NCBI GenBank assembly: GCA_024227975.1
Contig: JAAETV010000419.1
Location: forward strand, 1-19,794
Direction: 5' to 3'
Length of the DNA stretch: 19,794 nucleotides
From: Actinomycetes bacterium
GTDB taxonomy: Bacteria; Actinomycetota; Acidimicrobiia; Acidimicrobiales; SZUA-35
This document shows, one piece after another, positions 3,248 to 19,794 of this stretch. A model generated the notes under the pieces. It was not told the DNA's origin and searched no databases. It saw only the letters and a list, made by a program, of their open reading frames with translations. The number at the start of each line of letters is the position of its first letter. The stretch's first letter is position 1. A program made the position numbers and the translations under genes.

Positions 3248-3278
3248 GCCGGGAATACGCAGCAATCCTGCGTCCGGC
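3248..3278 (-). promoter_or_regulatory. Hairpin in the infA-rpmJ spacer
   Basis: The 123-bp spacer 3221-3343 holds one good inverted repeat. ACGCAG (3257-3262) and CTGCGT (3268-3273) form a perfect 6-bp stem with a 5-nt loop, extended by GCCGG (3248-3252) pairing with CCGGC (3274-3278) across a 4-nt bulge. It ends 28 nt before the rpmJ start. It could be a leader structure, a processing site or a site for an S4-like repressor. The structure is visible; the role is inference. Confidence 0.45.
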
Positions 3279-3343
3279 CTGAGCGGGAGGGACTTTTGGG
3301 AGGCGGCCCGGCGGGTGCCTCGGGAACTGGTTGCTTGGGTTGC

Positions 3344-3568: not shown

Positions 3569-3615
3569 GACAATCCTCCATAACCGGCGGTGCGGGCACA
3601 ACGGCCCAATCGTTT

Positions 3616-3644
3616 AGTCTAGAGCGACCAAGGTGTGGCGCCAA
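3616..3644 (-). promoter_or_regulatory. Candidate sigma70-type promoter for infA-rpmJ-rpsM-rpsK-rpsD
   Basis: On the minus strand TTGGCG (3639-3644) is followed after exactly 17 nt by TAGACT (3616-3621). Each hexamer matches 4 of 6 consensus positions. Transcription would start near 3608-3610, about 40 nt before the proposed CTG start of infA, leaving room for the GGAGG. It sits in the 80-113 bp gap after adk, a reasonable place for an alpha-operon promoter. Found by eye. Confidence 0.45.
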
Positions 3645-3648
3645 CCCG

Positions 3649-3678
3649 GCTGAATACCCTCTAGCCCAGTGATTCAGC
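3649..3678 (-). terminator. Inverted repeat just after adk
   Basis: GCTGAAT (3649-3655) and ATTCAGC (3672-3678) form a perfect 7-bp stem with a 16-nt loop. On the transcribed strand it begins 3 nt after the adk stop. No T-run follows. It lies immediately before the candidate infA promoter, so it could mark the end of the secY-adk transcript. The long loop weakens the case. Confidence 0.3.
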
Positions 3679-3681
3679 GCC

Positions 3682-4275: not shown

Positions 4276-4293
4276 GAGTACCTCCGAAGCGTG

Positions 4294-5637
4294 CTACTTC
4301 AAGAATCCGTCGTAGTTCCTGGCCATCAGCTGGGCGTTGATCTGCTTCATGGTCTCGAGAGAGACACCGACAGCAATCAACACCGACACGCCGGAGAAGC
4401 CGACCAGGCTGGCCGCGTTGTTGCTACCCGAACCCAGGAGCCGAGCGAGGGCGGCCGAAGGGATGAGGGCCACCAGAGCCAGGAACAGGGCACCGGGGAG
4501 GGTGATGCGGTTCAAGATCTTGGCCAGGTATCGCTCAGTTTGCGGTCCGGGCCGGATGCCGGGGATGAACCCGCCCGACTTGCGGAGCTCATCGGCTCGA
4601 CGAACCGGGTCGAAGGCAATCGCATTGTAGAAATAGGCAAACCCCACGATCAGAGCACCGAAGACGAGGATGTAGCCAAGATTGTCCGGCTGGAAAAGGT
4701 TGTTCGAGATGAAGGTGCGGACAGTGTCACCCCAGTTCGGCTGGGCGGGATCACCACTCGTTGGCAAGACATTGGCCAACAACGACGGCAACTGAAGTAG
4801 GGAGCTGGCGAAGATCACGGGGATGACACCAGCCTGGTTCACCTTGAGTGGGATGTAGGTGTTATTGCCGCCGTATTGCCGACGTCCGACAACCCGCTTG
4901 GCGAAGTTGACCGGGATACGGCGCTGGCCCTGTTCGACAAAAACGATCCCAGCGCACAACACTGCCAGGAGGAGGAGGGCAACAACGAGCCACGCCCACC
5001 CTGAGATGGCCTTGATACGGATCCCAAGTGCGGGGAGGCCGCTGACGACCGAAGCGAAGATGAGCATCGACATCCCGTTGCCGATGCCTTTCTGGGTCAC
5101 CAGCTCGCCCATCCACATGACCAGGGCCGTTCCAACCGTCATACAAGTGATGGCCATTACCATCAGACCGGCCGAGGAATCGGGGAAGAGGCCAACATCG
5201 ATGCCGAAGAAGGCGGTCGGGTTGCGCCCGACGATGAACACGATGCCCGTGCTTTGCACCATGGCCAAGACGATGGCGATGTAGCGGGTCCACTGGGTGA
5301 TCTTGCGCTGCCCGACCGATCCCTGCGACTGCCACTCCTCCAACTTGGGGACGGCCACGGTCAGGATCTGGATGATGATCGAGGCCGTGATGTAGGGCAG
5401 GATCCCGAGAGAGAACAGAGACAGTGAGGAAAGTCCTCCACCCGTGAACAGGTTCAGGTAGCCGAAGATCCCGCCCTCGGTCTGCTCGGCCTCGGCCCGC
5501 AGCTGCTCGATGGCATCGAGGCTGACCCCTGGGGCCGGGATCTGAACCCCGAGCCGGTAGACGGCCAGGATGAAGATCGTGAACAGGATCTTGTTCCGCA
5601 GTTCGGTGGTTCGCAGAACGTTTCGCAGCGTTGACAT
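4294..5637 (-). CDS. secY: Preprotein translocase subunit SecY
   Basis: SecY is the channel of the Sec translocon in the cytoplasmic membrane. The 447-residue product shows ten hydrophobic segments. The N-terminal RNKILFTIFILAVYRLGVQIPAPGV begins TM1, GGGLSSLSLFSLGILPYITASIIIQIL covers the plug and TM2 region, and KVNQAGVIPVIFASSLLQLP is the conserved cytoplasmic-loop/TM7 stretch. Near the C-terminus, RYDGFLK-like residues (NYDGFLK) end the protein, which is usual. The ATG at 5635-5637 has AGGAG about 9 nt upstream. It follows rplO, its normal partner in the spc operon, but across an 81-bp spacer with the recurrent two-hairpin element. Confidence 0.98.
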   Translation of the reverse strand: MSTLRNVLRTTELRNKILFTIFILAVYRLGVQIPAPGVSLDAIEQLRAEAEQTEGGIFGYLNLFTGGGLSSLSLFSLGILPYITASIIIQILTVAVPKLEEWQSQGSVGQRKITQWTRYIAIVLAMVQSTGIVFIVGRNPTAFFGIDVGLFPDSSAGLMVMAITCMTVGTALVMWMGELVTQKGIGNGMSMLIFASVVSGLPALGIRIKAISGWAWLVVALLLLAVLCAGIVFVEQGQRRIPVNFAKRVVGRRQYGGNNTYIPLKVNQAGVIPVIFASSLLQLPSLLANVLPTSGDPAQPNWGDTVRTFISNNLFQPDNLGYILVFGALIVGFAYFYNAIAFDPVRRADELRKSGGFIPGIRPGPQTERYLAKILNRITLPGALFLALVALIPSAALARLLGSGSNNAASLVGFSGVSVLIAVGVSLETMKQINAQLMARNYDGFLK

Positions 5638-5656
5638 ATGCTGATTCTCCTGGGAC

Positions 5657-5708
5657 GTTTCGGCCTAGCCGAGACTCCAAGCAACCCATAGGAACCCCGC
5701 CGGGTTCC
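5657..5708 (-). promoter_or_regulatory. Two-hairpin element between rplO and secY
   Basis: On the minus strand GGAACCC-GGCG-GGGTTCC (5691-5708) starts 10 nt after the rplO stop. It is followed by GTCTCGGC-TAG-GCCGAAAC (5657-5675; one G-T pair) and then GTCCCAGGAG, which runs into the secY ribosome-binding site. The second stem can alternate with an overlapping CCGGG/CCCGG pairing near 5700-5711. No T-run follows. Placement directly before secY suggests attenuation or processing that lowers secY relative to ribosomal proteins. The layout matches the elements after rpsJ and rpsD. Confidence 0.55.
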
Positions 5709-5718
5709 CGGTTGCCAG

Positions 5719-6204
5719 CTACCGGTTGGTTAGTGCATTTCCTTGAGCCGCTGGCCTCACCTTGAACGGCAGGGGCAGCTTCTCAACTTTGCCACCTGCT
5801 GCGATGATGGCGGCTTCAGCACTCTTGGAAAAAGCGTGAGCCTTGACCATGACGGGTTCGGAGACCGTCCCCCGGCCAAGCACCTTGACCAGGGAACCCT
5901 TGCCGACAAGACCCTTGGCTAGCAGGGCCTCGGGAGTGACCTCGAGCAGGCCAGATTCGACGATCGTGTCAAGGTTGATGGCCTGATACTCGACCCGGAA
6001 TGGGTTGTTGAAGCCACGCAGCTTGGGTAGACGCTGCTGGATCGGCAGCTGGCCGCCTTCAAAACCGACCCGGACCGTGTTGCGGGCCTTCTGACCCTTG
6101 GTGCCTCGGCCGGCGGTCTTGCCACCCTTGCCTCCGATACCACGACCGACGCGCTTGCGACGCCTACGTGAACCCTCGGCTGGCTTGAGATCGTGAATCT
6201 TCAT
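5719..6204 (-). CDS. rplO: 50S ribosomal protein L15
   Basis: L15 is a late-assembly large-subunit protein. The 161-residue product starts [22 protein letters not shown] and continues with [19 protein letters not shown], the Gly/Lys-rich extension that threads into 23S rRNA. The globular domain ends with [15 protein letters not shown]. The ATG at 6202-6204 is 2 nt after rpmD. It is the last gene of a tightly packed stretch, and the spacer to secY carries hairpins. Confidence 0.97.
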
Positions 6205-6206
6205 TG

Positions 6207-6416
6207 TCAGGAATCCTCTTGCGCTTCGACGCTGACCAGGTGAGGAACACGGGCGATGATGCCTCGTATCTCAGGGCGGTCAGGCAGCACGTTCGACTTG
6301 CCGATGCGGCCCAGTCCAAGGGCTCGGAGGCAGCCTCGCTGCTTTGGCTTGGACCCGATAGCGGACCGGGTCTGGGTTACCTTGATCGCACCATCGTTTG
6401 CACTTGCGCCGGCCAT
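6207..6416 (-). CDS. rpmD: 50S ribosomal protein L30
   Basis: L30, 69 residues. [51 protein letters not shown] is the complete conserved domain, with the RALGL-x-RIG motif. A short [10 protein letters not shown] leader precedes it. Start and upstream stop share a base (TGATG with rpsE), indicating translational coupling. It lies between rpsE and rplO as in most spc operons. Confidence 0.97.
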
Positions 6417-6985
6417 CAGCCGACCTCCGCCCCGGCCTTGGCCGCTTTCTTGCGCTCGTTGTACGCATCGAGCATGCCCTTGGGGGTGAACTCGCTGGCG
6501 TCGAGGCCGCGCAGACGAGCAACCTCGTCGGGCCGCTTCAAGCTCTGGAGAGCATTGATGGTGGCGCGAGCCACGTTGATCTGGTTGGCTGAGCCGAGCG
6601 ACTTGCAGAGCACGTCGCTGATGCCGGCCTCTTCTAGAATGGCGCGGGCCGCGCCCCCGGCGATGACTCCGGTACCGGGAGCCGCAGGCTTGAGCAGGAC
6701 TCGTCCTGCACCCTGGGTACCGATGATGGGGTGGGTGATGGTGCCACCGGCCATCGGCACGTCGAACATGAGGCGACGGGCCTCTTCGGTGCCCTTCTGG
6801 ATGGCCAAAGGCACCTCCTTGGCCTTGCCGTAGCCGAGACCGACCCGGCCGTTGGCATCGCCCAGAACGACAAGGGCGGTGAAGGCAAAGCGACGCCCAC
6901 CCTTGACCACCTTGGCTACCCGGTTGATGGTGATGACTCTGGACTCTCGCCCGTCACCGCGATCATTTCGATCGTTGTTGGCCAT
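6416..6985 (-). CDS. rpsE: 30S ribosomal protein S5
   Basis: S5 contributes to decoding fidelity and the mRNA entry helicase activity. The 189-residue product has a basic, Asp/Arg/Asn-rich N-terminus, then [21 protein letters not shown], the S5 double-stranded RNA-binding domain. [23 protein letters not shown] and the C-terminal domain ([34 protein letters not shown]) follow. The ATG at 6983-6985 is 8 nt after rplR. Normal length and order. Confidence 0.98.
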
Positions 6986-6993
6986 GAGATCTC

Positions 6994-7362
6994 CTAGAAC
7001 TCGAGTCCGGCTTCGCGGGCGGCAGCAGCCAGAGCGGCCACGCGTCCGTGATAGCGGTTGCCACCGCGGTCGAAGACCACGGTGCTGACGCCCGCAGAGC
7101 GGGCCCGTTCGCCGATGAGACGACCAATCGAGGTCGCAGTGTCGACGTTGCCGGTGGAGCCGGCGGAGCGAACGCCTGCCTCATAGGAGGAGGCAGCAGC
7201 CAACGTACGACCCTGCGAGTCGTCGATGACTTGCACACTGATATGACGGTTGGACCGGAACACGGCCAAGCGAGGCCGCTCTGTTGTGCCAACCACCTTC
7301 TTGCGAACACGACGCTGCCGACGTTTGTGAGCAGCGTGCTTCACATTGGTTCTGGAGCTCAT
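6994..7362 (-). CDS. rplR: 50S ribosomal protein L18
   Basis: L18 binds 5S rRNA with L5 to form the central protuberance. The 122-residue product has a basic N-terminus ([41 protein letters not shown]) and the family C-terminus [26 protein letters not shown]. It overlaps the end of rplF by 4 nt (ATGA), indicating coupling, and is followed 8 nt later by rpsE. Normal. Confidence 0.98.
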
Positions 7363-7898
7363 TTGCCAGCCTTTCCAGCCTTGCGCAGCACCCGCTCGCC
7401 CGCATACCGGACACCCTTGCCCTTGTAGGGCTCGGGCTTTCGGTAGGCACGAATCTCAGCTGCTACCTGACCAACGACCTGCTTGTCGATGCCAACGACA
7501 CCGATCTTGGTCGGCTCAGGGACATCGAAGGTGACCCCCTCGGGGGCCTCCACCGTGATCGAGTGGCTGAAGCCGAGAGCCAGTTCCAACTTGGATGGCC
7601 CTTTGGCATTGGCCCTGTAGCCGACGCCGATGATTTCCAGGTCTTTGCGGAACCCTTCACTGACACCGACGACCATATTGTTGACCAGGGATCGGTTCAG
7701 GCCGTGAAGCGCCCTCGACTGACGCTCCTCGTTGAGCCGATCGAGGGTGATGGTGCCATCGTCGATCTCGATCGAGATCGGATCCGGCAGGGTGTGGGTC
7801 AAGGAACCCTTCGGGCCCTTGATCGTGAGATCCTGGCCACTGACGTCGATCTCGACGCCGGAGGGAACCGTGATGGGGGACTTGCCAATACGAGACAC
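7359..7898 (-). CDS. rplF: 50S ribosomal protein L6
   Basis: L6 lies near the GTPase-associated centre. The 179-residue product starts [17 protein letters not shown] and has two tandem L6 domains (about 10-82 and 90-165). The C-terminal signature [25 protein letters not shown] is characteristic. The start is GTG at 7896-7898, 8 nt after rpsH, and the matching N-terminus supports it. It overlaps rplR by 4 nt. Confidence 0.98.
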
Positions 7899-7906
7899 GG
7901 TGGCTC

Positions 7907-8311
7907 CTACCAGACGTAGCAGAGAACCTCGCCGCCGACCTTGGCCTTGCGGGCCGCTCGGTCGGTTACGAGTCCGGTGCTGGTCGAGAGCACGGCGACG
8001 CCAAGGCCACCAAGTACTCGGGGAATCTGATCGCTCTTGGTGTAGACCCGCAAGCCGGGCTTCGATACCCGCTTGATACCACTGATGACGCGCTCCCGCT
8101 CGGGGGAGTACTTCATATTGATGGTCAGGGTCGAACCAGGACGGTTGCTGTTCTCAGTTGCCTGGAACTCACCGATATAGCCCTCACGATGGAGGACATC
8201 GGCCAGAGCAACCTTGAGCTTGGACGAGGGCATGGAGACTTCGTCGTGCATCGCCGTGTTGGCGTTGCGGATCCGAGTCAACATGTCGGCGATGGGATCA
8301 GTCATTGACAT
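7907..8311 (-). CDS. rpsH: 30S ribosomal protein S8
   Basis: S8 binds helix 21 of 16S rRNA; in several bacteria it also represses spc-operon translation at the rplE region. The 134-residue product has [31 protein letters not shown] and the C-terminal signature [34 protein letters not shown]. Two starts are possible, MSMTDP or MTDP (codon 3); I kept the longer. It sits 17 nt after rpsZ and 8 nt before rplF. Confidence 0.98.
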
Positions 8312-8328
8312 TGTTCATGCACCGCCTT

Positions 8329-8514
8329 TCACCAGCTGGCCTTGGTAACACCCGGGATCTCGCCGGCGTGAGCCATCTCCCGGAAGCAAACCCGACATAG
8401 GTCGAAGCGGCGATACACGGAACGGGGCCGGCCACAACGGCGGCACCGGGTGTAGGCCCTGACCTTGAACTTGGGTTTGCGCTGTTGCTTGTTGATGAGT
8501 GCTTTCTTGGCCAT
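8329..8514 (-). CDS. rpsZ: 30S ribosomal protein S14, type Z (zinc-binding)
   Basis: A 61-residue short S14. It keeps the zinc ribbon C24-x2-C27 and C40-x2-C43 (TRCRRCGRP ... [24 protein letters not shown]). This is the zinc-dependent form; a zinc-free, longer S14 is often encoded elsewhere in actinobacteria under Zur control. Start and rplE stop share a base (TAATG). Often annotated rpsN. Standard position between rplE and rpsH. Confidence 0.97.
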
Positions 8515-9086
8515 TATTGGGCCTGCCCTTCACGCCGGAACGGGAAACCGAATGCATCGAGGAGGGCTCGGCCCTCTGCATCGCTGGTTGCGGATGTGAC
8601 GATCGTGATGTCCATACCCCGTGGTTGATCGACGGCGTCGTAGTCGATCTCGGGGAACACCAACTGCTCGGAGAGTCCGAAGGTGTAATTGCCCCGACCG
8701 TCGAACGACCGAGGGCTGAGACCCCGGAAATCACGGATTCGGGGGATAGCCAGGGTGACAAGGCGGTCGAAGAACTCCCACATCCTGTCTCCTCGGAGGG
8801 TCACCTTGCAGCCAATGGGATTGCCCTGGCGCAGCTTGAAGCTGGCCAGTGACTTCTTGGCCTTGGTGATAACCGGCTTCTGGCCGGCGATGAGAGCCAG
8901 ATCGGCAACAGCCGCGTCCAGCGCTTTGGATTGGACGACGGCTTCACCGACGCCCATGTTGATCACGATCTTCTCGAGCTGGGGAACTTGCATGACATTG
9001 CCAAGCTCCAGGCTCTCCTTCAGCTGATCGCGGATCGATTCCTGATAGATGGACTTGAACCGGGGCGAGGTTGTGGTGGCGGTCAC
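8514..9086 (-). CDS. rplE: 50S ribosomal protein L5
   Basis: L5 binds 5S rRNA and contacts P-site tRNA. The 190-residue product has [67 protein letters not shown], the L5 signature, and [23 protein letters not shown] near the end. The start is GTG at 9084-9086, overlapping the rplX stop by 4 nt (GTGA); no better ATG exists nearby. Followed by rpsZ with a 1-nt overlap. Confidence 0.98.
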
Positions 9087-9403
9087 TCGGACACCTCCGG
9101 AATCTCGGCTCCCGTCCGCTTGCAGACCCGAATCTTGCGATCTCCATCGATCTTGTAGCCGACGCGAGTCGGCTTGCCGTCTTTGGGGCTGATGACAGCG
9201 ACATTGGAGACGTCCATCGGCATGTCCTTGTCGACGATGCCACCAGGATCTTCCTGTGATCGGGCCTTGGTGTGACGACGAGCCGTGTTGTGGCCCTCGA
9301 CGATCACCTTGCCCGTTGCCGGGAAAGCGACCAGTACCTGGCCTTCCTTACCCCGGTCCTTGCCGGACAAGATCCGTACTTGATCACCCTTGCGAATTCT
9401 CAT
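9083..9403 (-). CDS. rplX: 50S ribosomal protein L24
   Basis: L24 is an assembly initiator at the exit tunnel. The 106-residue product begins [24 protein letters not shown], a KOW motif, and continues with the conserved [46 protein letters not shown] is the usual C-terminus. The start is 2 nt after rplN and the end overlaps rplE by 4 nt. Confidence 0.98.
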
Positions 9404-9405
9404 GG

Positions 9406-9774
9406 CTAGATCACCTCCGGGGCGAGAGAGACGATGCGCATGAAGCGCTTGTCGCGAAGCTCGCGGCCAACGGGGCCGAAGATGCGGGTCCCTCGCGGCT
9501 GCTGCTGCTCATTGATCAGGACGGCGGCGTTCTCGTCGAAGCGGATGTAGGAACCGTCAGGACGACGGCGCTCCTTCTTGGTCCGCACGACGACGCAGCG
9601 GACGACCTCGCCCTTCTTGACCTGAGCGCCAGGGATAGCATCCTTGACGGTTGCGACGAAGATGTCGCCGATACCGGCATAGCGTCGGCGGGAACCGCCG
9701 AGCACCTTGATGCACAAGACCTCGCGAGCACCTGAGTTGTCGGCGATGCGGAGTCGTGATTCCTGCTGGATCAT
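9406..9774 (-). CDS. rplN: 50S ribosomal protein L14
   Basis: L14 forms intersubunit bridges. The start is the ATG at 9772-9774 ([37 protein letters not shown]), the highly conserved L14 N-terminus, giving 122 residues. An in-frame extension to 9807 lies inside rpsQ and is rejected. The C-terminus [27 protein letters not shown] is typical. It overlaps the rpsQ stop by 4 nt (ATGA). Confidence 0.98.
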
Positions 9775-10043
9775 CGAGCACGCTCCAGGACTTCGAGGAG
9801 GCGCCACCGCTTCTTGGCCGACAACGGGCGGGTCTCGACAATACGAACCCGGTCACCCTCGTTCAGGGTGTTCTCCTCATCGTGGGTGTAGTACTTGGTG
9901 CGCCGCTGAACGGTCTTGTTGTACTGGGGGTGACGAGAACGATCGGTCACCTCGATGACAGCCGTCTTGTCCATCTTGGCCGAGACGACCATCCCGTCAC
10001 GAGTCTTGCGCCGAATAGACCGGGGCGCTTGTTCATTGGCCAT
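9771..10043 (-). CDS. rpsQ: 30S ribosomal protein S17
   Basis: S17, an OB-fold early-assembly protein of the small subunit. The 90-residue product reads [47 protein letters not shown], then [29 protein letters not shown], both family hallmarks. It shares one base with the rpmC stop (TGATG) and overlaps rplN by 4 nt. Normal length and order. Confidence 0.98.
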
Positions 10044-10291
10044 CAGGCTTCTCCTTCACCACTGCTGGCCTGGCCTTCGCCAACCTCCAGCTGTTCGGCC
10101 GCTGCGATCTCCCGAGCTCGGATCTCGGTGTTGAGGCGGGCAATGTCTTTCTTGACCTGCTTGATCCGAGCCGTATTCTCCAATTGGCCGGTAGCCAGCT
10201 GGAAGCGCAGATTGAACAGCTCTCGCTTGGCATCAGCCAAGCCGTTTACGAGCGAGGCGTGTGAGGACTCGAGCAATATGTTGTCAGCCAT
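10043..10291 (-). CDS. rpmC: 50S ribosomal protein L29
   Basis: L29 lies at the tunnel exit near the SRP and trigger-factor site. The 82-residue product has the two-helix core ([50 protein letters not shown]) with the LFNLRFQ-x-ATGQLEN signature. A short Glu/Gly/Ala-rich tail follows ([20 protein letters not shown]). It starts 8 nt before the rplP stop. Ordinary apart from the slightly long tail. Confidence 0.97.
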
Positions 10292-10706
10292 CGAAACCGT
10301 CCACTCGTGTGATGATGCGGGCCTTGACCGGCAGCTTCTGGATAGCCCGGTTCAGAGCCTCGCGAGCGACCGTGTCATCGGGATATGAGAGCTCGAAAGC
10401 CACTCGACCGGGACGAACCACGGCCACCCAATGCTCAGGGTTGCCCTTGCCGGAACCCATTCGGGTCTCGGCCGGCTTGGCCGTCACCGGCTTGTCAGGG
10501 AAGACATTGATCCAGACCTTGCCGCCGCGGCGGACATGGCGGGTCATGGCGATACGGGCGGCCTCGATCTGGCGGGCTGTCAACCAGCCCGGTTCCAGAA
10601 CCTGGATGCCGTAGTCGCCGTAGGCGACGGTGGTCGCTCCCTTGGCATTGCCCTTGCGGCGACCTCGGTGTGTCTTTCGGTGCTTCACCTTGCGCGGCAT
10701 GAGCAC
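10284..10706 (-). CDS. rplP: 50S ribosomal protein L16
   Basis: L16 helps organise the A-site tRNA binding region. I chose the GTG at 10704-10706 because it gives [19 protein letters not shown], matching the ML-x-P-K/R start of the family, and lies 2 nt after rpsC like other gaps here; the ATG at 10698-10700 is the alternative. The product is 140 residues, with [41 protein letters not shown] as the diagnostic middle. It overlaps rpmC by 8 nt. Confidence 0.96.
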
Positions 10707-10708
10707 GA

Positions 10709-11620
10709 TCAATCACCATCCCCAGGGCGGAAGTGAGGGGTCTCGCTACCCGACTTGTCCTTGAGGCTGGCCTCGATGGCCTCTTCCTCAGCCAGGAGGC
10801 GCTCGAACTCAGGGTCGGCTTCTTTGACCAGGGGGGCTGGCTCTTCGGCTGCCTCGGGGGCCTCCGCTTCAGGCGCGGGCCGAGGCCGACGAGAGGAGGA
10901 GACAACAGTCCGGGGCGTATCGGCGGCGCCGGCAGTTTCACCGACAGCCATCGCCGCCTCGCGGCTGGCCTTGTCGGTGCTGGCCTTGTAGGGCAGGATG
11001 TCGCCCTTGTAGAGCCATACCTTGACACCAATGCGGCCATAGGTCGTGTGGGCCTCGCGCAGGCCGTAGTCGATGTCGGCTCGCAGGGTGTGGAGAGGAA
11101 CCCGGCCCTCGCGGTACCACTCGGTGCGGCCCATTTCGGCTCCACCGAGACGACCCGACGATTGGATCCTGATCCCCTTGGCTCCCGCCTTCATGGCGTT
11201 CTGCATGGCCCGTTTCATGGCCCGCCGGAAGGCCATGCGGCCGGCCAGCTGATCGGCGACACCCTGAGCGATCAGGGCGGCGTCGAGCTCGGGTTGCTTG
11301 ATCTCGACGATGTTCAGCTTGACCTTGGGGTTGCCGGTCAGCTTGGTCAGACCCTGGCGGAGGCGGTCGGCCTCAGAACCCTTGCGTCCGATGACAATGC
11401 CAGGGCGAGCCGTGTGCACGTCGATCTGGAGCTTGTCACGGGTCCGCTCGACCTCAACCCGGCTGATGGCCGCATTTGGCAGCTCGTTCAGCAGGTAGTG
11501 ACGGATGTTGTGATCCTCGAGCAGGTAGTCGCGGTACTCCTGGCGATCTGCAATCCAGCGTGACTTCCAGTCGGTCGTGACACCGAGGCGGAAGCCGTAG
11601 GGGTGAACCTTCTGGCCCAT
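10709..11620 (-). CDS. rpsC: 30S ribosomal protein S3 with a long acidic C-terminal tail
   Basis: S3 forms part of the mRNA entry site. Residues 1-215 are ordinary: [22 protein letters not shown], a KH domain with GRKG at 78-81, and the C-terminal S3 domain ([36 protein letters not shown]) ending around [10 protein letters not shown]. Residues about 216-303 are an Ala/Pro/Glu-rich, mostly acidic extension ([16 protein letters not shown], then [12 protein letters not shown]). The total of 303 is long compared with 210-280 in most bacteria; many actinobacteria have shorter tails. Overlaps the rplV stop by one base. Confidence 0.97.
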
Positions 11621-12288
11621 CAGGCATCACCCCCATCGTCGTCGCTACGCTCCTCGTCGCTCGAGGCTGCGTCATCGGTGACCTCGTCCACGGTGTCTTC
11701 AACGACTTCTGCTGTCACAGTGTCCTCCGCAACCTCGGTGGCCGCGAGGTCTGTGTCCTCGGCGTCCGTGGTTTGCTCGGTGTCTTCGGGGTCTTCGTTG
11801 CGGCTCTTGGCTACTCGGCGGGCTCGGGCGGCGCTGGCGTCGGCGTTGCGGCCACTGCTCTCGCCTCGGAGCTCAGCCTGGTGGCGCCGGGCGTCGAGCT
11901 CTTCCTCGTCATAGCGGCTGACCACGATCGTTATGTGGCAGGTCTGCTTGTGGATCCGACCGGCGCGTCCACGAGCCCGGGGGCGGAAACGCTTGAGCGT
12001 CGGGCCCTCATCGGCGTAGCAGGCGGAGATGTAGAGCTCCTCGGTCGGGATCTCGTCATTGTTCAGCGCATTGGCCACCGCTGAGCGGAGGCACTTGCCG
12101 ATGACCTGGGCCGCCAGGCGTTCGCTGAAGGCCAGGATCTGGTCGGCTTCGACAACATGCTTGCCCCGGATGAGGTTGAGTATCACTCGAACCTTGGAGG
12201 CTGACATCCGTACATAGCGGACCTGGGCCCGTGTCCCCGGACGCTCGTTGGTCTTGACCTTGGTTCCGAAGCTACTTGCGGCCGCCAT
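11620..12288 (-). CDS. rplV: 50S ribosomal protein L22 with a ~95-residue acidic tail
   Basis: L22 lines the nascent-peptide tunnel and is a site of macrolide-resistance changes. Residues 1-126 form a normal L22: [26 protein letters not shown], then [40 protein letters not shown] with the tunnel beta-hairpin. Residues 127-222 are an extension, first charged and basic ([23 protein letters not shown]) then strongly acidic from about 157 (repeated [24 protein letters not shown]). Typical L22 has 110-130 residues. The tail is in frame and continues up to the rpsC start (1-nt overlap), so it is not an obvious frameshift. Confidence 0.97.
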
Positions 12289-12566
12289 CAGCGCCGCCCT
12301 GATCGTTCTTGGCCGGCGTGGAACTTGAAAGTCCTCGTCGGGGAGAATTCGCCGAGCTTGTGACCGACCATCGATTCGGTGATGTACACCGGCACGTGCT
12401 TGCGGCCGTCGTGGACGGCAATGGTGTGGCCGACCATGTCAGGAATGATCGTCGAGCGACGAGACCAGGTCTTGACGACTCGCTTCTCGTTCCTCTCGTT
12501 GAGCTCGTCGACCTTCTTCAACAGGTGGTCGTCGACAAATGGGCCTTTTTTGAGACTTCGCGGCAT
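12288..12566 (-). CDS. rpsS: 30S ribosomal protein S19
   Basis: S19 pairs with S13 at the head of the small subunit. The 92-residue product has [80 protein letters not shown], essentially the consensus sequence for the family. Its start is 2 nt after rplB and its stop shares a base with rplV. Nothing unusual. Confidence 0.99.
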
Positions 12567-12568
12567 GA

Positions 12569-13405
12569 CTACCTCCGACCGCCACGCTTCCGCCGACGGC
12601 GGATGATGAGATCATCTGACTTCTTGCCCCGCTTGCGAGTACGGCCTTCGACCTTGCCCCAGGGCGAAACGGGATGACGCCCTCCGGAGGTCTTACCTTC
12701 ACCACCACCATGAGGGTGGTCGACGGGGTTCATGGCGACGCCACGAGTCTGGGGGCGCTTGCCCTTCCAGCGACTGCGGCCAGCCTTGCCGACCTTGATC
12801 AGCTCCGCTTCAGAGTTGCCGACCTCGCCAACCGTTGCTCGACAGTCGATCGATACTCGGCGCATCTCGGTGCTGGGAAGACGCAGCGTTGCCGTTGTGC
12901 CTTCCTTGGCCACCAACTGGACGCTCGTCCCGGCAGACCGAGCCAGCTTGGCTCCTGCTTCAGGCTGGAGCTCGACAGCGTGGACGACAGTACCGACCGG
13001 GATGTAGCGCAGGGGAAGTGCATTCCCGGGGCGGATATCGGCGGAAGGTCCAGACTGGATCTTGTCGCCAACGCTCAAATCACGAGGGGCCAGGATGTAG
13101 CGCTTCTCCCCATCGTGGTAGTGGAGCAGGGCGATGCGACAATTCCGGTTGGGGTCGTACTCGACGGAGGCGACCGTTGCCAAGACATCGTCCTTGTTAC
13201 GACGGAAGTCGACGACGCGATAGCGGCGTTTGTGGCCACCACCCCGGTGCCGCGAGGTCTTGCGTCCGTGGTTGTTGCGGCCGCCGGTCGAAGACTGCTT
13301 GGCCAGCAGTGACTTCTCCGGGCGCTCTGTTGTCAGCTCTGAGAAGTCAGACGTGGTCTGGAACCGTCGACCCGGGCTGGTTGGCTTGCGTTTGCGAATG
13401 GCCAT
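12569..13405 (-). CDS. rplB: 50S ribosomal protein L2
   Basis: L2 is required for peptidyl transferase activity and subunit association. The 278-residue product has the RNA-binding domain ([66 protein letters not shown]) and the C-terminal signature [30 protein letters not shown] with the key histidine. The basic tail reads [23 protein letters not shown]. Eleven bases separate it from rplW. Normal. Confidence 0.99.
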
Positions 13406-13416
13406 GATCCAGGTCC

Positions 13417-13710
13417 TCAGCTGGTGTAGAGCTCGATTTCACCCTCGGCCAGGGTGACAATCGCTCGTTTGGTCGTCGGTCGGGTACTAACGGTGTTGTT
13501 TCGCCGATTGCGAACACGCTTGCCCTTGCGGTTCAAGGTGTTGACTTTGGCTACCTTGACCCCGTCGAAGATGGTCTCTACGGCATCGCTGATCTCGGGC
13601 TTGGAGGCGCTAGCGGCAACGATGAAGGTATAGGCGTTGTTGGCCTCGCTCTGAACGAACGACTTCTCCGAAACCACCGGCCGGATGATTACGTCGTGTG
13701 GGTCTTTCAC
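13417..13710 (-). CDS. rplW: 50S ribosomal protein L23
   Basis: L23 is the tunnel-exit docking site for trigger factor and SRP. The 97-residue product reads [92 protein letters not shown], a complete L23. The start is a GTG at 13708-13710 that overlaps the rplD stop by 4 nt (GTGA). Normal. Confidence 0.98.
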
Positions 13711-14390
13711 GACTCCTCACTTTCACTGGTATCACTGCCACTGGTATCGCTGCTGCTGGCATCGGGCGCCATCCCGGGGAGGCTCGTCGTGGTGAAGACG
13801 ATGTAGTCGTTCACCAACACGTCGTAGGCGTTGAGCTGATCACCAACCAACACCGAGACCAGCGGGAGGTTACGAAAGCTCTTCTTGGCGTTGTCGTCGC
13901 TGCGGTCGACAACGACGAGGGTCTTGCCTTCGATCCCGAGAGCATCGAGAGCGGCTTTGGCCGTCTTGGTACTTGGCTGGTCGAATCCCCACTGGTCGAC
14001 GACGACGATCTTGTCGTCGCGGTAGCGATCAGTGAGAGCCGAACGCAAGGCCAACCTGATCATCTTCTTGTTGGTGCGCTGGGCGTAGTTGCGGGGCTTG
14101 GGGCCATGGGCGATACCGCCACCAACCCAGATCGGCGACCGGATCGATCCGGCCCGGGCTCGACCGGTGCCCTTCTGCTTCCACGGCTTGGCTCCACCAC
14201 CGCGGACCTCGGCCCGGGTCTTGGTGCTGTGGGTACCGGCTCGGCGAGCAGCCAATTGGGCCGTCACTACCTGATGGAGGACTGCCATGTTGGGTTCGGT
14301 ACCGAACGTGGCCTCGTCAAGATCGACCGTGCCCGCACTCGCACCCGATGAGGACTTGACGTCAACGGAGGTCGGGGTTGCGCTAGGCAT
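13707..14390 (-). CDS. rplD: 50S ribosomal protein L4 with a Ser/Asp-rich tail
   Basis: L4 lines the tunnel; in enterobacteria it also represses the S10 operon. I took the ATG at 14388-14390 ([11 protein letters not shown]), which overlaps the rplC stop by 8 nt; the longer frame up to 14489 is antisense-like shadow inside rplC. The 227-residue product has the tunnel loop [44 protein letters not shown] and the C-terminal domain. The last 15-20 residues ([16 protein letters not shown]) form a Ser/Asp/Glu tail absent from typical L4; its DNA has a short duplicated CACTGGTATC motif. Confidence 0.97.
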
Positions 14391-15036
14391 CGGAGTTGCT
14401 CGCCTTCTTGATCGCATTGCGGATGATGACCGTCCCGCCCTTGGGCCCCGGGACCGAGCCCTTGACCAGGACGACATTGCGCTCGGCATCGGAGCGGACG
14501 ACGGTGAGGCTCTGGGTCGTGACCCGATCCGAACCCATACGGCCCGCCATCTTCACCCCTTTGAAGACCCGGGACGGAGTGGCGCACTGGCCAATCGAGC
14601 CGGGCATACGGTGGACGAGGTGGGCGCCGTGAGTGGCTCGCTGGCCGCTGAAGTTGTGACGCTTCATGACGCCGGCGAAGCCCTTGCCTTTGCTGGTGCC
14701 GATGGCATCGACGGCCTCACCGGCCTCGAAGACGTCGGCCCCTAGTTCCTGGCCTGGTTCATAGTCCGAGACATCGTCGAGGCGGAGCTCGACGAGCTCG
14801 CGGCCGGGGGCAACTCCTGCCTTGGCGAAGTGACCCGCTTCGGGCTTCGTGAGCTTGTTGGCATCCTTCTCGCCAATGGTCACCTGGATGGCCGAATAGC
14901 CGTCGGTGGCTGGCGTCTTGATCTGCACGACGCGGCAAGGCGTGACCTTCACCACCGTGACAGGGATGACGCGGTTCTCGTCATCCCACACCTGGGTCAT
15001 GCCGACCTTCTCGCCGACGATCGCCTTTTGAGCCAT
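14383..15036 (-). CDS. rplC: 50S ribosomal protein L3
   Basis: L3 is an assembly initiator close to the peptidyl transferase centre. The 217-residue product starts [41 protein letters not shown]. The signature [50 protein letters not shown] is complete, including the glutamine usually N5-methylated in that loop region. The start is the ATG at 15034-15036. Upstream is a 316-bp non-coding stretch, then the GH16-like gene instead of the expected rpsJ, so this long operon needs its own promoter or long readthrough. Confidence 0.98.
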
Positions 15037-15048
15037 ACGAATGTCACT

Positions 15049-15104
15049 TTCCCGTCAGAGGGAACTCCACTCATTGCCGGGTGGGAGCGCCGTTCACGTG
15101 AACG
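15049..15104 (-). promoter_or_regulatory. Palindrome and SD-covering stem in rplC leader
   Basis: CGTTCACGTGAACG (15091-15104) is a perfect 14-bp palindrome centred on CACGTG; flanking GGAG/CTCC can lengthen it with a 3-nt bulge. It could be a dimeric-protein operator or an RNA hairpin. Closer to the gene, TTCCC (15060-15064 on the minus strand) can pair with GGGAA (15049-15053) across a 6-nt loop, covering the most purine-rich sequence before the rplC ATG. Both structures are visible directly; a role in repression of rplC is inference. Confidence 0.4.
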
Positions 15105-15142
15105 CTCCGCAACCAGGTTTGGATCCTGCGAGCGGAGCAACT

Positions 15143-15174
15143 GTTATAGGGCCGGGCGGTTCCTCGACTGGCAA
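15143..15174 (-). promoter_or_regulatory. Weak promoter candidate for rplC operon
   Basis: On the minus strand TTGCCA (15169-15174) and TATAAC (15143-15148) resemble -35 and -10 boxes. The spacing is 20 nt rather than 16-18, which lowers confidence. The predicted start would lie about 100 nt upstream of rplC, so the transcript would include the CACGTG palindrome and the stem over the ribosome-binding site. Confidence 0.25.
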
Positions 15175-15352
15175 GAAGAGGCCTACGCGGACGTCTCGAG
15201 CGTCCGTTTCCCCGCCATGGTCTATACCGGCGGTTCGAGCAACTGGGCACGCTCGACGAGCGGACCGGTTCCTGCGGACCGAACTAGCCTACCGGCCCCC
15301 CTCAGGGGTTCCACCGAGGCCGATTGGGCGCTGTTTCAAGGGTCTGCGCTGA

Positions 15353-16804
15353 CTAGTCGCAGCCCCGCCAACGGTGGACCCTGACGAAGTCAATCTCGAG
15401 CACGGCTGCCTCGCCCAGGGTGCTGGCGGTCGTGTCGAAGCTGATACCGAGGGCACTGGCCCCATCGGGGATGGGGTGCTCGTTGGGGTCGAGGGAGCGA
15501 ATGACGACATCATTACGCAGCAAGGTCGAACTCTCCGGCGTCCACTCCAGCACCAGGGTCTCCCACTCCGAAGCATCGCCGGAGTGTTCGATCACGGTGG
15601 TCGCGCCATCGCTGAGGGTCGGATGGAAGATCGAGCTGAAAGGACGCACGTCGTCGGTGCCGTCGTCATCGGCGTCGGCACTGGTCGATCGGTAGAGCTC
15701 GTAGCCACCGTCGGTTGGGAGGTCTCCATCGCTGGGCCAGATGCCGATCGAGGCGACGACTTCGGTCGCCGAGGAGGCATCAGTCCTGACCCTGATCTCA
15801 TAGCGACCATATGGCTCATCGTTGCGCAGCCGAAGGGCCCCGCCCCAGGGCTGGCCGCCGACCATGGAGGCCCGGATGCTGAGCACCCCTTCCCCAACCA
15901 CGAGTGTCGAGGGTCGCCTGATACCGACCCCGTCATCCCCGTCCGCGGTGAGGGACTCCCAGCGGTCGGACTCGAGGGTGCCACCGTCGAAGTGCTCGTC
16001 GATGGCCAGGGTCCACGGACGGCAGGCCGCAATCACTGGCCCATCGTTGGTCTGGGGCTCCGTGGTTGACGGGGCCGAGGTCGATGGCGGCTCAGATGTG
16101 GTCGAGGTGGTGGTGGCCAACGTCGTCGATGGGCTGGCCGTGGTGGTCGGGGCAGCCGTGGTCGTTGGACGGCGGGTGGTTGCGGTCGTTGGCTGGCGGG
16201 TGGTTGGGGTCGTTGGCTGGCGGGTGGTTGGGGTCGTTGGCTGGCGGGTGGTTGGGGTCGTTGGAGCGACCGTGGTCGAAAGAGCCGTCGTCGACGAGGT
16301 CGAGTCGGCAACTGCCCGTGTGACCTGGGTGGTCAGGGTCGGGGCCACGCTCTCGATCCGGTTCAGGCCATCGACGAGGCCGTCGGAGGGCACGAAGACA
16401 CCCAGTTGGTCACCATCGGGAGGGGTAGCAGACGAAGCCGGCGACGCCAGGTACTCGGTGGATAGGGACAATACCTTCGCTCGGTCACCGGTGCCCCCGA
16501 TCACACCGACGGCCAGAGCGGTGAAGACCACAGCCGCAGCCGGACGAGCCATACGTCGGATCGACCGGGGAACCCGCGCCGTTGACATCTTGGCTTCACG
16601 GGCCCGCTCGATCAGGCTCGGCAACTCCCGAAGGTCGTATTCGGCCGTCGGCCCATTCCAGAGCAGATCGTCGAAGGAATCACCAGAAGCATCAGGCCCA
16701 AAGAAAACCTCAGCAGCCGAGGGGCTATCGTCCGCGCTTTTGGCCCATCCTTCTTGGCCCGATTCATGATCTTGCGAAAGCTGCCAAACCCGTTTCCGCC
16801 ACAC
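15353..16804 (-). CDS. Membrane-anchored GH16-like (ConA-fold) protein, probably non-catalytic
   Basis: Not a ribosomal gene. From the GTG at 16804 (residue 1) the 483-residue product has: a cytoplasmic segment of about 85 residues, acidic then basic (RVPRSIRRMAR); one transmembrane helix at about 88-105 (PAAAVVFTALAVGVIGG), positive side inside; a Thr/Pro/Ser-rich linker to about 260 with four PTTPTTRQ-type repeats; and a GH16-like domain from about 262 to the end, with DEHFDGGTLESDRW, YGRYEIRVR (332-340), WPSDG (356-360), LVLEWTPESS and IDFVRVHRW. Where GH16 enzymes have ExDxxE, this protein reads E369-L-Y-R-S-T, losing the Asp and the acid/base Glu, so hydrolysis is unlikely. C261 and C482 could form a disulphide closing the domain. 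An upstream GTG at 16879 would add 25 residues but has poor ribosome-binding context; AAGGGG sits 10 nt before 16804. Confidence 0.8.
   Translation of the reverse strand: MWRKRVWQLSQDHESGQEGWAKSADDSPSAAEVFFGPDASGDSFDDLLWNGPTAEYDLRELPSLIERAREAKMSTARVPRSIRRMARPAAAVVFTALAVGVIGGTGDRAKVLSLSTEYLASPASSATPPDGDQLGVFVPSDGLVDGLNRIESVAPTLTTQVTRAVADSTSSTTALSTTVAPTTPTTRQPTTPTTRQPTTPTTRQPTTATTRRPTTTAAPTTTASPSTTLATTTSTTSEPPSTSAPSTTEPQTNDGPVIAACRPWTLAIDEHFDGGTLESDRWESLTADGDDGVGIRRPSTLVVGEGVLSIRASMVGGQPWGGALRLRNDEPYGRYEIRVRTDASSATEVVASIGIWPSDGDLPTDGGYELYRSTSADADDDGTDDVRPFSSIFHPTLSDGATTVIEHSGDASEWETLVLEWTPESSTLLRNDVVIRSLDPNEHPIPDGASALGISFDTTASTLGEAAVLEIDFVRVHRWRGCD
16171..16266 (-). repeat. Four tandem 24-bp repeats in the Thr/Pro linker
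   Basis: Four contiguous 24-bp units, at 16171, 16195, 16219 and 16243. Units 2 and 3 are identical; units 1 and 4 differ by one or two bases. Each codes for eight residues of the type TRQPTTPT in the extracytoplasmic linker. Near-identity at the DNA level indicates recent slippage or unequal exchange, so linker length probably varies between strains. It is in-frame coding repeat, not a CRISPR array. Confidence 0.95.
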
Positions 16805-17079
16805 TTCGAGGCCACCCCTTACGTAATTGCTTCTCCTGGTCAATAGCTCCGGTGTGAGGAAGTGTCCGCCTCCACACACCTTGGACGGGTTGCAAGCAGA
16901 CAGTACCGCGCTTCTTCGGGTGCTGTCCTACCGGGCGTATGAGTCTTGGGTTGCCAGGGAGGCAATACCTCGGGGGGAAAGGCGCCAAACAGAGTTGAGA
17001 ATCGGTGATCAGCGGGGTCCTGATGGGGTAGCAGCGATACCAGGCCAAAAGGGCTTGGTGAACCGCATCCTTGGCTTCC
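16805..17079 (-). other. 275-bp spacer between kinase and GH16-like gene
   Basis: No convincing gene, promoter or strong hairpin was found. A minus-strand open frame (16764-17048) covers it, but its composition is unlike a protein family and it overlaps the downstream gene. The spacer is long for this packed cluster, so the GH16-like gene may have a promoter here that I cannot recognise. Confidence 0.4.
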
Positions 17080-19008
17080 TCAGCGAACGAGCTCGATCTC
17101 GCGGCGTGTCCCGATGCGAGTCCCGTCCTGTCGGGTCACGATCAGGGTGATCTCCCACGAGCCCTCACCCCTGGGGGTGATCTTGTAGGTATCACCCACC
17201 AGGAGCTGGCCGGTGGGATCGATCCACTCGACGCTGGCCACGTCGTCATGGGGAGCGGAGAAGGTGAACTGGGCGGTATTGCCCACTGTCACCTCGGCCG
17301 GGCCCACGATCTCAGGACCGTTGTCCGCCTCGACAATCGTCACGGTGTGATTAGCCGACCGGGATTCGCTGCCGTCGTTGATGGCGACGACACTGAAACT
17401 GAGCTGGCCGGGGGCGATGGCCCGAACCTCCAGCTCCTCGCTATCGATGGAGTCACCGTTCCAGTCGGTCCACCGATATGAGTCGGCACCGTCGAAGCTG
17501 GCGGTATATGTCTGAATCTGGCCGGCAGCCACCTCGGGCGGACCGCTGATCGTTGGGGTCGGGCCTTGGAGAGTGAAGAAGCCGCCTACTCCGGCCAAGG
17601 CCAAGACTACGACTCCGAGAAGCCAGGGCCACAGGGTTCGCTTCTTGACCTGTTGCGACTGCTTGAATGACGGAGCCTGGAAGTAGGGCGCCTGACCGCC
17701 GATAGTCGGCTGCTCAGCCGGAAGCTGAGAAGGGGGACCCGATTCCGCAACCGACGGTGGCGAGTAGTGAGCCTGTGCGGGAGGCTGATACGACGGCTGG
17801 CCCGTCTGGGGGTAGTCCGAATGGAGAGGCAGGCCCGACTGCCCGTGACCGTGCTGCTGACCATGTTGTTGGCCGAGTTGTTGATCGTGTTGCAGGCCAG
17901 ATTGCTGTTGGCCCGTCTGCGAGTAGCCACTATCAGGCAAACCGCCGTGCTGACCTGATTGGGGATGGCCGCCCGGTTGTCCCGTCTGGGGGTAGCCCGA
18001 CTGTGGCTGCTCGACCTGGGTTTTGGCGCTAGCGGGGTCTCCGATTGGGGGGAAGTGGGCGGGTCCGGGAGTAACTGGGGGTGCGCTGTAGCCGGGGTCG
18101 CTGGCTCCGGTTGAAGGCTGGGATGGTGATGCCCATTGGGTGGTCGCTGACCCCAACTGCTGGCCTCCCGCCTGTTGGGTCCCACCAAAGGCATCCCGGA
18201 ACTCGCTGGACCAGTCCTCGATGGAGTGGTGGCGGTCATCTTGGCGGAAAGCCATCCCGTGGCGGAAGAACTGACCGAGGGGGCCGCCCATCCACCATTC
18301 ATGGTCGGGGAAGGGGACCGCCTCGTGCAGGATCTCGAAGCTGGGCGGGATCACGCCGCTGATGACCCGGTACATGACAGCGGTGGTTGCGTACAGGTCA
18401 GTGCGACGATCGGGGGCACCTTGGGGGTTCATCTGCTCGGGGGCCGCGTACCCACCGGTACCGGCAGCAATAGTCAGGTTTGTGGCTTGGAGGGCAACAT
18501 CTTTGGCCAGGCCGAAGTCACCCAACACAAGGCGCTCGGCCGGGAGCATGAGAGACGACACCTGCTGATCGACTATCGACCGGCTGCCCGTGACGAGCAG
18601 GTTGCTCGGCTTGATGTCACGGTGGATCAGGTCGTGATCATGAACGGCGCGGACACAGGCGGCAACCTCGACGGCGACCCCCAGAATCCCCTCTTGGGAC
18701 GGTGATGTCACTCGGCTCAAACGGTCCTCGAGGGTGCCGCGATTAGCCAGCGACATCACGAAGTAGGGCTGGCCCGATGGGAGCTCGCCGATGTCGTGGA
18801 CGGTGACCACCCGATGGGAATCGATGCGACGAAGGAGCTGAGCCTCCCTCATGAACCGATCTCGCAGATCTACGTTGTCGGTCCAGTTCTCGGCCAGAAC
18901 CTTGGCCGCGACCTCGCTGTCGAGCACCGAATCGCGGACACGATAGACGGTGGCGAAGCCACCCGAGCCGATGCGCTCGACGACCTCGTAGCGACCGATC
19001 CTGTCCAA
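17080..19008 (-). CDS. Transmembrane Ser/Thr protein kinase with two PKD/Ig-like ectodomains
   Basis: A 642-residue PknB-like kinase. Kinase domain 7-274: glycine loop GSGGFATVY (14-22), VAAK lysine K36, helix-C E55, HRDIKPSNLL (H129-R130-D131; N136), DFG (164-166), GTGGYAAPE (183-191) and TDLYATTAVMYRVISG. All catalytic residues are present. About 15 extra residues lie between the catalytic loop and DFG. Residues 275-454 are a Pro/Gln/Gly/His linker with repeats such as YPQTGQP and long Q/H runs. A transmembrane helix at about 459-480 (WPWLLGVVVLALAGVGGFF) leads to two Ig/PKD-like modules (about 483-560 and 562-642; each opens I-x-GP-x-EV). It lacks PASTA repeats. The start is TTG at 19008 with GGGAG 8 nt upstream and matches the kinase N-terminus (DRIGRYEVVERIGSGG). 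Probable role: sensing an extracellular ligand and phosphorylating cytoplasmic targets; the ligand is unknown. Confidence 0.92.
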   Translation of the reverse strand: MDRIGRYEVVERIGSGGFATVYRVRDSVLDSEVAAKVLAENWTDNVDLRDRFMREAQLLRRIDSHRVVTVHDIGELPSGQPYFVMSLANRGTLEDRLSRVTSPSQEGILGVAVEVAACVRAVHDHDLIHRDIKPSNLLVTGSRSIVDQQVSSLMLPAERLVLGDFGLAKDVALQATNLTIAAGTGGYAAPEQMNPQGAPDRRTDLYATTAVMYRVISGVIPPSFEILHEAVPFPDHEWWMGGPLGQFFRHGMAFRQDDRHHSIEDWSSEFRDAFGGTQQAGGQQLGSATTQWASPSQPSTGASDPGYSAPPVTPGPAHFPPIGDPASAKTQVEQPQSGYPQTGQPGGHPQSGQHGGLPDSGYSQTGQQQSGLQHDQQLGQQHGQQHGHGQSGLPLHSDYPQTGQPSYQPPAQAHYSPPSVAESGPPSQLPAEQPTIGGQAPYFQAPSFKQSQQVKKRTLWPWLLGVVVLALAGVGGFFTLQGPTPTISGPPEVAAGQIQTYTASFDGADSYRWTDWNGDSIDSEELEVRAIAPGQLSFSVVAINDGSESRSANHTVTIVEADNGPEIVGPAEVTVGNTAQFTFSAPHDDVASVEWIDPTGQLLVGDTYKITPRGEGSWEITLIVTRQDGTRIGTRREIELVR

Positions 19009-19315
19009 CGCTGCTACTCCCGTACCTGCTCGTCGAATGGCCCCAGCTTGGCAACCTCAAATAGAGCCCCCGAGTACCTGCCGTCGATCATACCGGCCAC
19101 AGCCCCTAGCCTGCCCCAAACCAGTGCTGAGGGTCCCCACACTCCCCAGACGCGACTGAGCGGCCGACCAGTTCTCCAGCCGACCACCCAGTCCAAACTC
19201 GTCTCAGTTATCCCTCAAGCCAACGTTCAGCAGGTCCATAACCCACACGAGCGCTAGAGCGGAGGACGTTTCGGCCAACCCGAAACTCCCGAAGGCCGTC
19301 CTCCGGACGGCCGAC
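19009..19315 (-). other. 307-bp spacer between rpsJ and the kinase gene
   Basis: No plausible gene in this spacer. The rpsJ-proximal side holds the two-hairpin element (19268-19312). Nearer the kinase, the minus strand has TATGAT at 19087-19092, a good -10 match; the hexamer 17 nt upstream (GGCAGG) is a poor -35. GGGAG at 19017-19021 lies 8 nt before the kinase TTG. A kinase promoter here is plausible but not shown. Confidence 0.4.
19268..19312 (-). terminator. Two-hairpin element after rpsJ
   Basis: On the minus strand GGCCGTCC-GGA-GGACGGCC (19294-19312), a perfect 8-bp GC-rich stem with a 3-nt loop, begins 3 nt after the rpsJ stop. GTTTCGG-GTTGG-CCGAAAC (19268-19286), a perfect 7-bp stem, follows, trailed by GTCCTCC. 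The first stem alone is strong enough to pause polymerase, but no T-run follows. Given that unrelated genes come next, termination of the tuf-rpsJ transcript is the simplest reading. The layout matches elements at 5657-5708 and 1644-1701. Confidence 0.55.
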
Positions 19316-19636
19316 TCAGACCTCTTGGATCTTGAGCTCGATGTCGACGCCGGCTGGCAGCTCTAGCCGCTGGAGGGAGTCGACCGTCTTCGGGTTCGGT
19401 TCCAGGATGTCGATGAGGCGCTTGTGGATGCGCATCTCGAAGTGCTCGCGACTGTCCTTGTCCTTGTGAGGTGACCGGATCACGCAGAACCGGTGCTTCT
19501 CGGTCGGCAAGGGGATAGGACCACGGAACTCAGCATTGGTCCTGGCTACGGTCTCGACGATCTTCTTGGTCGACTGATCAACGATCTCATGATCGTACGC
19601 CTTCAACCGGATTCGGATCTTCTGCTTTCCTGCCAT
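19316..19636 (-). CDS. rpsJ: 30S ribosomal protein S10
   Basis: S10 (NusE) works in the ribosome and in transcription antitermination with NusB and NusG. The 106-residue product reads [99 protein letters not shown], the full family sequence. The ATG at 19634-19636 is 13 nt after tuf, so it is probably cotranscribed with tuf. It is normally followed at once by rplC; here hairpins and a kinase gene follow. Confidence 0.99.
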
Positions 19637-19649
19637 GGTCTCTCAGCCT

Positions 19650-19794
19650 CTACTTGATGATCTTGGTGACACGACCGGCACCAACCGTCCGGCCACCCTC
19701 ACGAATAGCGAACCGCAAACCCTCATCCATCGCAATCGGATTAATCAACTCAACCGTCATCTCCGTATTATCACCCGGCATACACATCTCCGTA
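19650..19794 (-). CDS. tuf: Elongation factor Tu, C-terminal end (runs off window)
   Basis: Only the last 47 codons are present. They read [47 protein letters not shown], the domain III C-terminus of EF-Tu, which delivers aminoacyl-tRNA to the ribosome. Stop TAG at 19650-19652. The rest, and presumably fusA, rpsG and rpsL, lie beyond the window edge. Confidence 0.97.

Follow-up and report, generated by a model that had tools for sequence, protein, structure and literature searches.

The S10 ribosomal protein operon of an acidimicrobial actinobacterium (assembly GCA_024227975.1, contig JAAETV010000419.1, positions 1 to 19,794, referred to here in its full length as the window) is interrupted between rpsJ and rplC, and our data draw attention to a short RNA element located before rplC. 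This element has a covarying structure, lies directly before rplC and is tied to open rpsJ–rplC junctions. We propose, with a probability of about 0.65, that it represents an undescribed ribosomal leader RNA (r-leader) of the Acidimicrobiia (here: the class) which governs a re-cut S10 operon, with control having moved away from rpsJ and the rpsJ–rplC adjacency having been freed as a recurrent landing site for genes. The original prediction for this locus had concentrated on the two genes residing in the interruption; interest shifts from these passengers to the element before rplC, as a likely new r-leader and as the likely reason for the open junction.

A strongly conserved stretch is found upstream of rplC in nearly all open junctions. 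Alignment of 64 loci reveals its architecture, i.e. a helix P1 with a 3' bulge, a conserved linker, a second helix P2 and a conserved tail. P1 reads, in RNA terms, G-UCCGUG-A-GGCC ... GGnACC-CACGG-C, the linker has a consensus near CACAACCGA, the arms of P2 are CGCUCCGC and GCGGAGCG, and the tail is UUCGCGUGA. The element and the genes that it precedes are located in the window as follows:

15089..15199, minus strand: candidate ribosomal leader RNA (model R1; cmsearch 55.7 bits, E 1e-13)
15151..15192, minus strand: leader helix P1, arms 15179-15192 and 15151-15164 (64-locus alignment; one C-C mismatch in the window)
15103..15139, minus strand: leader helix P2, arms 15132-15139 and 15103-15110 (64-locus alignment)
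15089-15102, minus strand: conserved tail, 3' of P2 (64-locus alignment)
14383..15036, minus strand: rplC (L3), opening gene of the downstream operon (NCBIfam equivalog TIGR03625, 296 bits)
13707..14393, minus strand: rplD (L4; Pfam Ribosomal_L4, 2.3e-70)

RNAalifold recovers both P1 and P2 unprompted, with double changes in 14 of 17 pairs. For the 24 pairs of the named structure in the 64 sequences, 91.4% of the cells are paired versus 82.4% in shuffles, double-change cells number 129 versus 32, and 20 of the 24 pairs show a double change. By each of five measures, the structure surpasses every one of 500 shuffles, and it also surpasses all versions in which the partner was slid, with 35–45% of cells paired when it was slid by 1–3 columns. 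These compensatory changes indicate that the element acts as RNA, and the freely varying lengths of its loops speak against a coding sequence. A pairing between linker and tail, judged by eye, was dropped since it showed no covariation.

A covariance model built from 64 of 121 element-bearing loci (the window being one of the 64) yields 84 strong matches in 100 loci including the window, each the only one in its locus and upstream of rplC; the next-best score, 21 bits, comes from that same hairpin read on the reverse strand. The model also matches 30 of 30 further loci of the class, and none of 30 loci from match-free genomes or of seven outgroup loci. At the scale of whole genomes, 183 of the 395 class genomes carry the element; 177 of them have a single match and six have two, the second match being a contig overlap in G143; the other second matches are in G029, G005, G239, G348 and G380. 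A search of the phylum gave matches in 27 of 296 genomes, 22 of them in the class, all with rplC downstream, and five weak ones outside (E 1.4e-5 to 8.4e-4). None of the latter is near rpsJ, rplC or rplD, three are terminator-like hairpins and two lie within coding sequence, and we treated them as chance matches, with one (G445) scoring above what chance readily gives.

All strong matches examined directly precede rplC. The distance from the end of the model to rplC is 5–109 nt (111 loci), i.e. there is no insert between element and rplC. The element adjoins rplC in ten of ten genomes checked, including seven that have rpsJ on another contig or more than 12 kb away; the rpsJ contig ends within 4.2 kb in four of these, and the separation is a true one in three (G132, G185, G372). 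Within the clade of the window (window 15037-15088, minus strand; L001, L002, L089, L090), a short hairpin CCC(G/T)CTGACGGG with the motif CCCKCUGACGGG is seen between the element and rplC. Judged by eye, it overlaps the likely ribosome-binding site of rplC and is a possible candidate for a regulatory output.

A conserved 5' structure that covaries, is confined to one lineage and is always found before ribosomal protein (r-protein) genes is what passages of Eckert and Weinberg (2020; PMC7247131) describe for r-leaders in general, and the element, as a putative 5' leader, shares these traits. According to the same source, what usually marks an r-leader is that it has one location, ahead of an r-protein operon, and some r-leaders may bind no r-protein. 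Alternatively, the element could serve in RNA processing or stability, in attenuation or as part of the promoter region, without being bound by an r-protein. We consider this unlikely, as compensatory changes indicate action as RNA and its one place before an r-protein operon is that usual mark (PMC7247131); in favour of such a function, no mimicry of rRNA was detected, and the variable distance to the start codon argues against P2 simply masking the ribosome site.

Is such a leader already known? Rfam gives no family at the gathering threshold in the window or in three relatives, and the sole match among these four sources (in L001, E 1.7) is at chance level. No leader before rplC in Actinobacteria was found described in the literature, supplements and subscription journals being outside the scope of this search. 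Table 1 of PMC7247131 contains no rplC, L3 or L4 leader for Actinobacteria, the only leader before rplC in that table being an archaeal L4 candidate in the Archaeoglobi.

The second line of evidence is the state of the rpsJ–rplC junction itself. Scanning contigs with rplC of the window produced 80 loci, 29 acidimicrobial (by title or placement) and 51 from other actinobacteria. In addition, 395 genomes of the class were sampled, of which 345 had an rpsJ match, and 100 rpsJ regions were chosen from the about 150 of these matches that were listed, so that this sample favours relatives of the window; rplC lies on the same strand within reach in 92 of the 100 regions, and more than 1 kb separates rpsJ from rplC in 55 of those. 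An element-free set was chosen as 40 genomes without a leader match, for 30 of which loci were obtained. Altogether, the gap could be measured at 152 loci of the class (115 with and 37 without the element), with seven loci without a measurable gap being omitted.

In the spacing comparison across actinobacteria that the original prediction had called for, the gap is 8–39 bp in all 51 loci from outside the class, versus at least 179 bp in all 115 element-bearing loci (window included) and more than 1 kb in 68 of them. Among the element-free loci of the class, a sample partly selected for lacking the element, the gap is below 60 bp in 31 of 37. In 25 of these 37 loci (e.g. L216-L224), rpsJ and rplC were seen to overlap by 4 bp (ATGA type), which is tighter than the 8–39 bp of other actinobacteria and suggests translational coupling. 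The sample contains near-copies; collapsing them leaves 57 inserts and 43 short gaps among the element loci and 28 of 34 tight junctions among the element-free ones. Mapped onto a tree of rpsJ and rplC proteins, the presence of an insert requires at least 16 changes, and the element label requires five, versus 38 with shuffled labels; with so few changes, the element is an old trait with few gains or losses, and the loci are not independent of each other. Thus, the conserved rpsJ–rplC adjacency on which the original prediction was based holds outside the class, but a wide gap is common within it and no oddity of the window, and the plain operon split that had been offered as a fallback is supported.

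Signals flanking the junction are also found in the relatives. Upstream of the element, TANNNT is enriched at 41–70 nt, with 12, 21 and 27 of 87 loci in consecutive 10-nt bins versus 4.9 to 5.8 in shuffles, and we infer that the element is transcribed from this −10-like site. On the other side, the 80 nt following rpsJ have a mean folding z of −2.43 in 82 relatives versus −0.21 inside rpsJ, with z below −1.5 in 63% versus 15% of these loci. The original prediction was right about the hairpins on the rpsJ side of the window. In the window itself, these 80 nt fold with z −1.8, and no T-run terminator was found after rpsJ.

A number of observations weigh against our proposal. At E 0.001 and with strict filters, 212 of the 395 genomes of the class have no match, and the E-values of the covariance model are rough. 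Six of the 37 element-free loci have a gap of 110–335 bp. No mimicry of 23S rRNA was found, which supports neither L4 nor L3 as the ligand: searching two 23S loci with the whole model gave at best 10.3 bits, on the reverse strand and outside the rRNA, and a 10-nt piece of the linker that matches 23S rRNA with one mismatch (shuffles about two) was not counted. (In G007 and G008, the 23S rRNA matches are fragmented or miss the 5' half; inserts, introns or a limit of the search may account for this.) Finally, the copy in the window has diverged, with the C-C mismatch in a weak P1 and a linker that is not conserved; folded alone it does no better than shuffles (z −0.70), TANNNT is missing at the usual distance upstream of it, and no consensus promoter was found in window positions 15000-19400. 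Both the promoter and the terminator signals are weak in the window. The structured leader that the original prediction had placed on the rplC side is unconvincing in isolation but, judged by the alignment and its covariation, real as a family.

Taken as a whole, sequence comparison makes it quite likely that the S10 operon is divided between rpsJ and rplC, that the rplC operon is under a new r-leader and that the gap tolerates insertions. In this arrangement, rpsJ would end a str-type unit (tuf–rpsJ) and be followed by hairpins, and rplC would head an operon of its own, complete with promoter and structured 5' leader. Both of these points have the backing of sequence statistics. The gap may have repeatedly gained and lost genes because no co-transcription would be needed across the stretch that separates the rpsJ hairpin from the rplC promoter, and the two genes in the window would be lineage-specific passengers. 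By analogy with known r-leaders, an r-protein encoded in the rplC operon and present in excess would bind the leader and lower expression. The ligand of the new element might be L4 by precedent (the rule of Eckert and Weinberg), which seems the likelier choice, or L3 by nearness, as the product of the first gene.

In the E. coli system, the leader of the S10 operon is controlled by L4 (PMC10931766). The new element would act on the same gene block, within which L4 is encoded. The E. coli leader, however, precedes rpsJ, whereas the element of the class precedes rplC, with rpsJ located upstream or elsewhere. The element thus lacks the defining position of the E. coli type, which heads the S10 operon ahead of rpsJ, and no structural similarity to the E. 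coli S10 leader was found by the Rfam search. The S10 leader of Firmicutes/Clostridia and the S10 candidate of Peptostreptococcaceae (sections of PMC7247131 and PMC11109978) are likewise candidate leaders of the S10 block, but they precede the S10 gene and belong to another phylum; the comparison with them was made via Rfam.

What occupies the gaps differs by lineage. Among the 68 gaps that exceed 1 kb, including that of the window, AI-2E-type transporter genes are the most frequent (27 loci); an HtrA-like protease comes second (nine loci), and many gap genes are seen once only. The transporter (L018:8482-9681 and 26 other loci) is nearly always oriented opposite to the operon and probably reflects one old insertion within a clade. 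Open reading frames (ORFs) of at least 200 amino acids show no strand preference in the gaps (77 on the operon strand, 68 opposite), with the ORF calls being mechanical and possibly containing false antisense ORFs. Even within the clade of the window, the five gaps measure 4,279, 3,056, 343, 314 and 1,670 bp and their contents are unlike: the nearest relative, L001 (an Acidimicrobiales metagenome-assembled genome with 83% rplC identity and a gap of 3,056 bp), carries a GGDEF gene oriented against the operon, the gap of L090 holds an OmpA/BON gene, and L002 and L089 have gene-free gaps of 343 and 314 bp.

In the window, the order on the minus strand is the 3' end of tuf, rpsJ, a Ser/Thr kinase gene, a GH16-like gene, rplC, rplD and then the remaining S10, spc and alpha genes. 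The features upstream of the leader are:

19648..19794, minus strand: 3' end of what we take to be tuf, from its EF-Tu C-terminus, the last gene upstream of rpsJ (in-frame C-terminus; stop 11 nt ahead of rpsJ)
19316..19636, minus strand: rpsJ (S10), terminal gene of the upstream unit (NCBIfam PRK00596 and TIGR01049, above cut-off)
19294..19312, minus strand: 8-bp hairpin directly 3' of rpsJ, possible terminator (folding, z −1.8)
17080..19008, minus strand: Hanks-type Ser/Thr kinase gene, lineage-specific insert (Pfam Pkinase, motifs, hydropathy)
15353..16879, minus strand: gene for a GH16-like protein, likely start GTG at 16807 (profile similarity, homologue alignment)

As originally described, two unrelated genes, both on the operon strand, fill a distance of about 4.3 kb (4,279 bp) between rpsJ and rplC, and both products appear by hydropathy to be single-pass membrane proteins. 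The earlier statement that transposase genes and att-like repeats are absent also agrees with our findings: the ORFs of the insert in the window belong to families other than those of mobile elements or islands, and neither direct repeats at its borders nor a tRNA were found there. A single 16-nt repeat pair (at 16623 and 19284) lies away from these borders. A unique, domesticated insert, as had been suggested, is ruled out by the inserts in 68 of 115 element-bearing junctions, whose contents differ and none of which, among the other junctions examined, includes the kinase or the GH16-like gene.

Could the interruption be an assembly join? The data are of the metagenome-assembled type, and contig breaks at tuf are common among the loci examined; the window (which ends at 19794) and the contigs of many relatives stop in or near tuf just upstream of rpsJ, as expected if a second copy of tuf breaks assemblies. 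Yet many independent assemblies show open junctions, which vary widely in size and in some cases lie on single contigs of more than 3 Mb (e.g. L098, L104, L115, L130, L169, L173), the leader is placed in the window as in its relatives, insert and operon are alike in GC content (64.2% and 62.2%), and another record contains a GH16-like protein that is 98% identical (P0001, whose gene neighbours were not seen). An artefact of this kind is therefore extremely improbable.

The kinase matches Pfam Pkinase (1.4e-31) and has the ATP-binding Lys, HRD and DFG motifs of Hanks-type Ser/Thr kinases together with a single hydrophobic segment (residues 462–480, by hydropathy). It shares this catalytic domain and the one transmembrane segment with PknB kinases, but scores 150 against the 450-bit cut-off of the PknB_PASTA model and has two weak PKD/Ig-like regions in place of PASTA repeats.

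The ORF at 15353-16879 has no significant Pfam match, but as a profile its small family matches solved GH16 structures (best E 3.2e-7), which is the basis of its likeness to GH16 proteins. It probably starts at GTG 16807, where the homologue P0002 begins, and encodes one hydrophobic segment (by hydropathy) and a Thr/Pro-rich linker. In alignments with its homologues and with 6t2n and 3iln, both Glu positions of the catalytic Glu-x-Asp-x-x-Glu motif are replaced (by G and R), whereas homologues P0003-P0005 retain both, with Asp changed to Asn; both catalytic Glu residues are lost, and conventional hydrolase activity is improbable for the protein. Within its linker, a 24-nt tandem repeat is present at window positions 16136-16279, and P0001 has fewer repeat units, i.e. 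the copy number varies.

The original prediction had also raised the idea of a tie between envelope sensing and ribosome synthesis; in this view, the two genes would stay next to the ribosomal genes as a link from envelope or sugar sensing to the making of ribosomes. Both genes are indeed on the operon strand, the motifs of the kinase are intact and combined with extracellular-looking domains, and a 71% identical full-length homologue of the kinase from another place (P0007) indicates a gene under constraint. However, the junctions of 180 loci (80 and 100) revealed no homologue of the kinase or the GH16-like protein, the nearest relatives hold other genes or none there, large ORFs in such gaps lie on both strands, and orthologues of the two genes were not found elsewhere in the class either (best match to the kinase in 395 genomes: 39% over residues 2–331). 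A link between envelope sensing and ribosome synthesis is thus unsupported and very improbable. Relatives with both genes elsewhere and an intact junction, which the original prediction had named as speaking against it, were not encountered, the kinase having no orthologue in those 395 genomes.

If the proposed r-leader is real, Actinomycetota would gain a lineage-specific r-leader for the S10 block, and the class would show how the oldest bacterial operon can be divided, with rplC acquiring its own promoter and RNA, rpsJ joining the str unit and the gap becoming free space. Element plus open gap on the one hand, and no element plus overlapping genes on the other, would represent a natural experiment on how operon coupling is kept or lost. 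Furthermore, this system could serve to test whether it is L3 or L4 that senses the supply of ribosomes.

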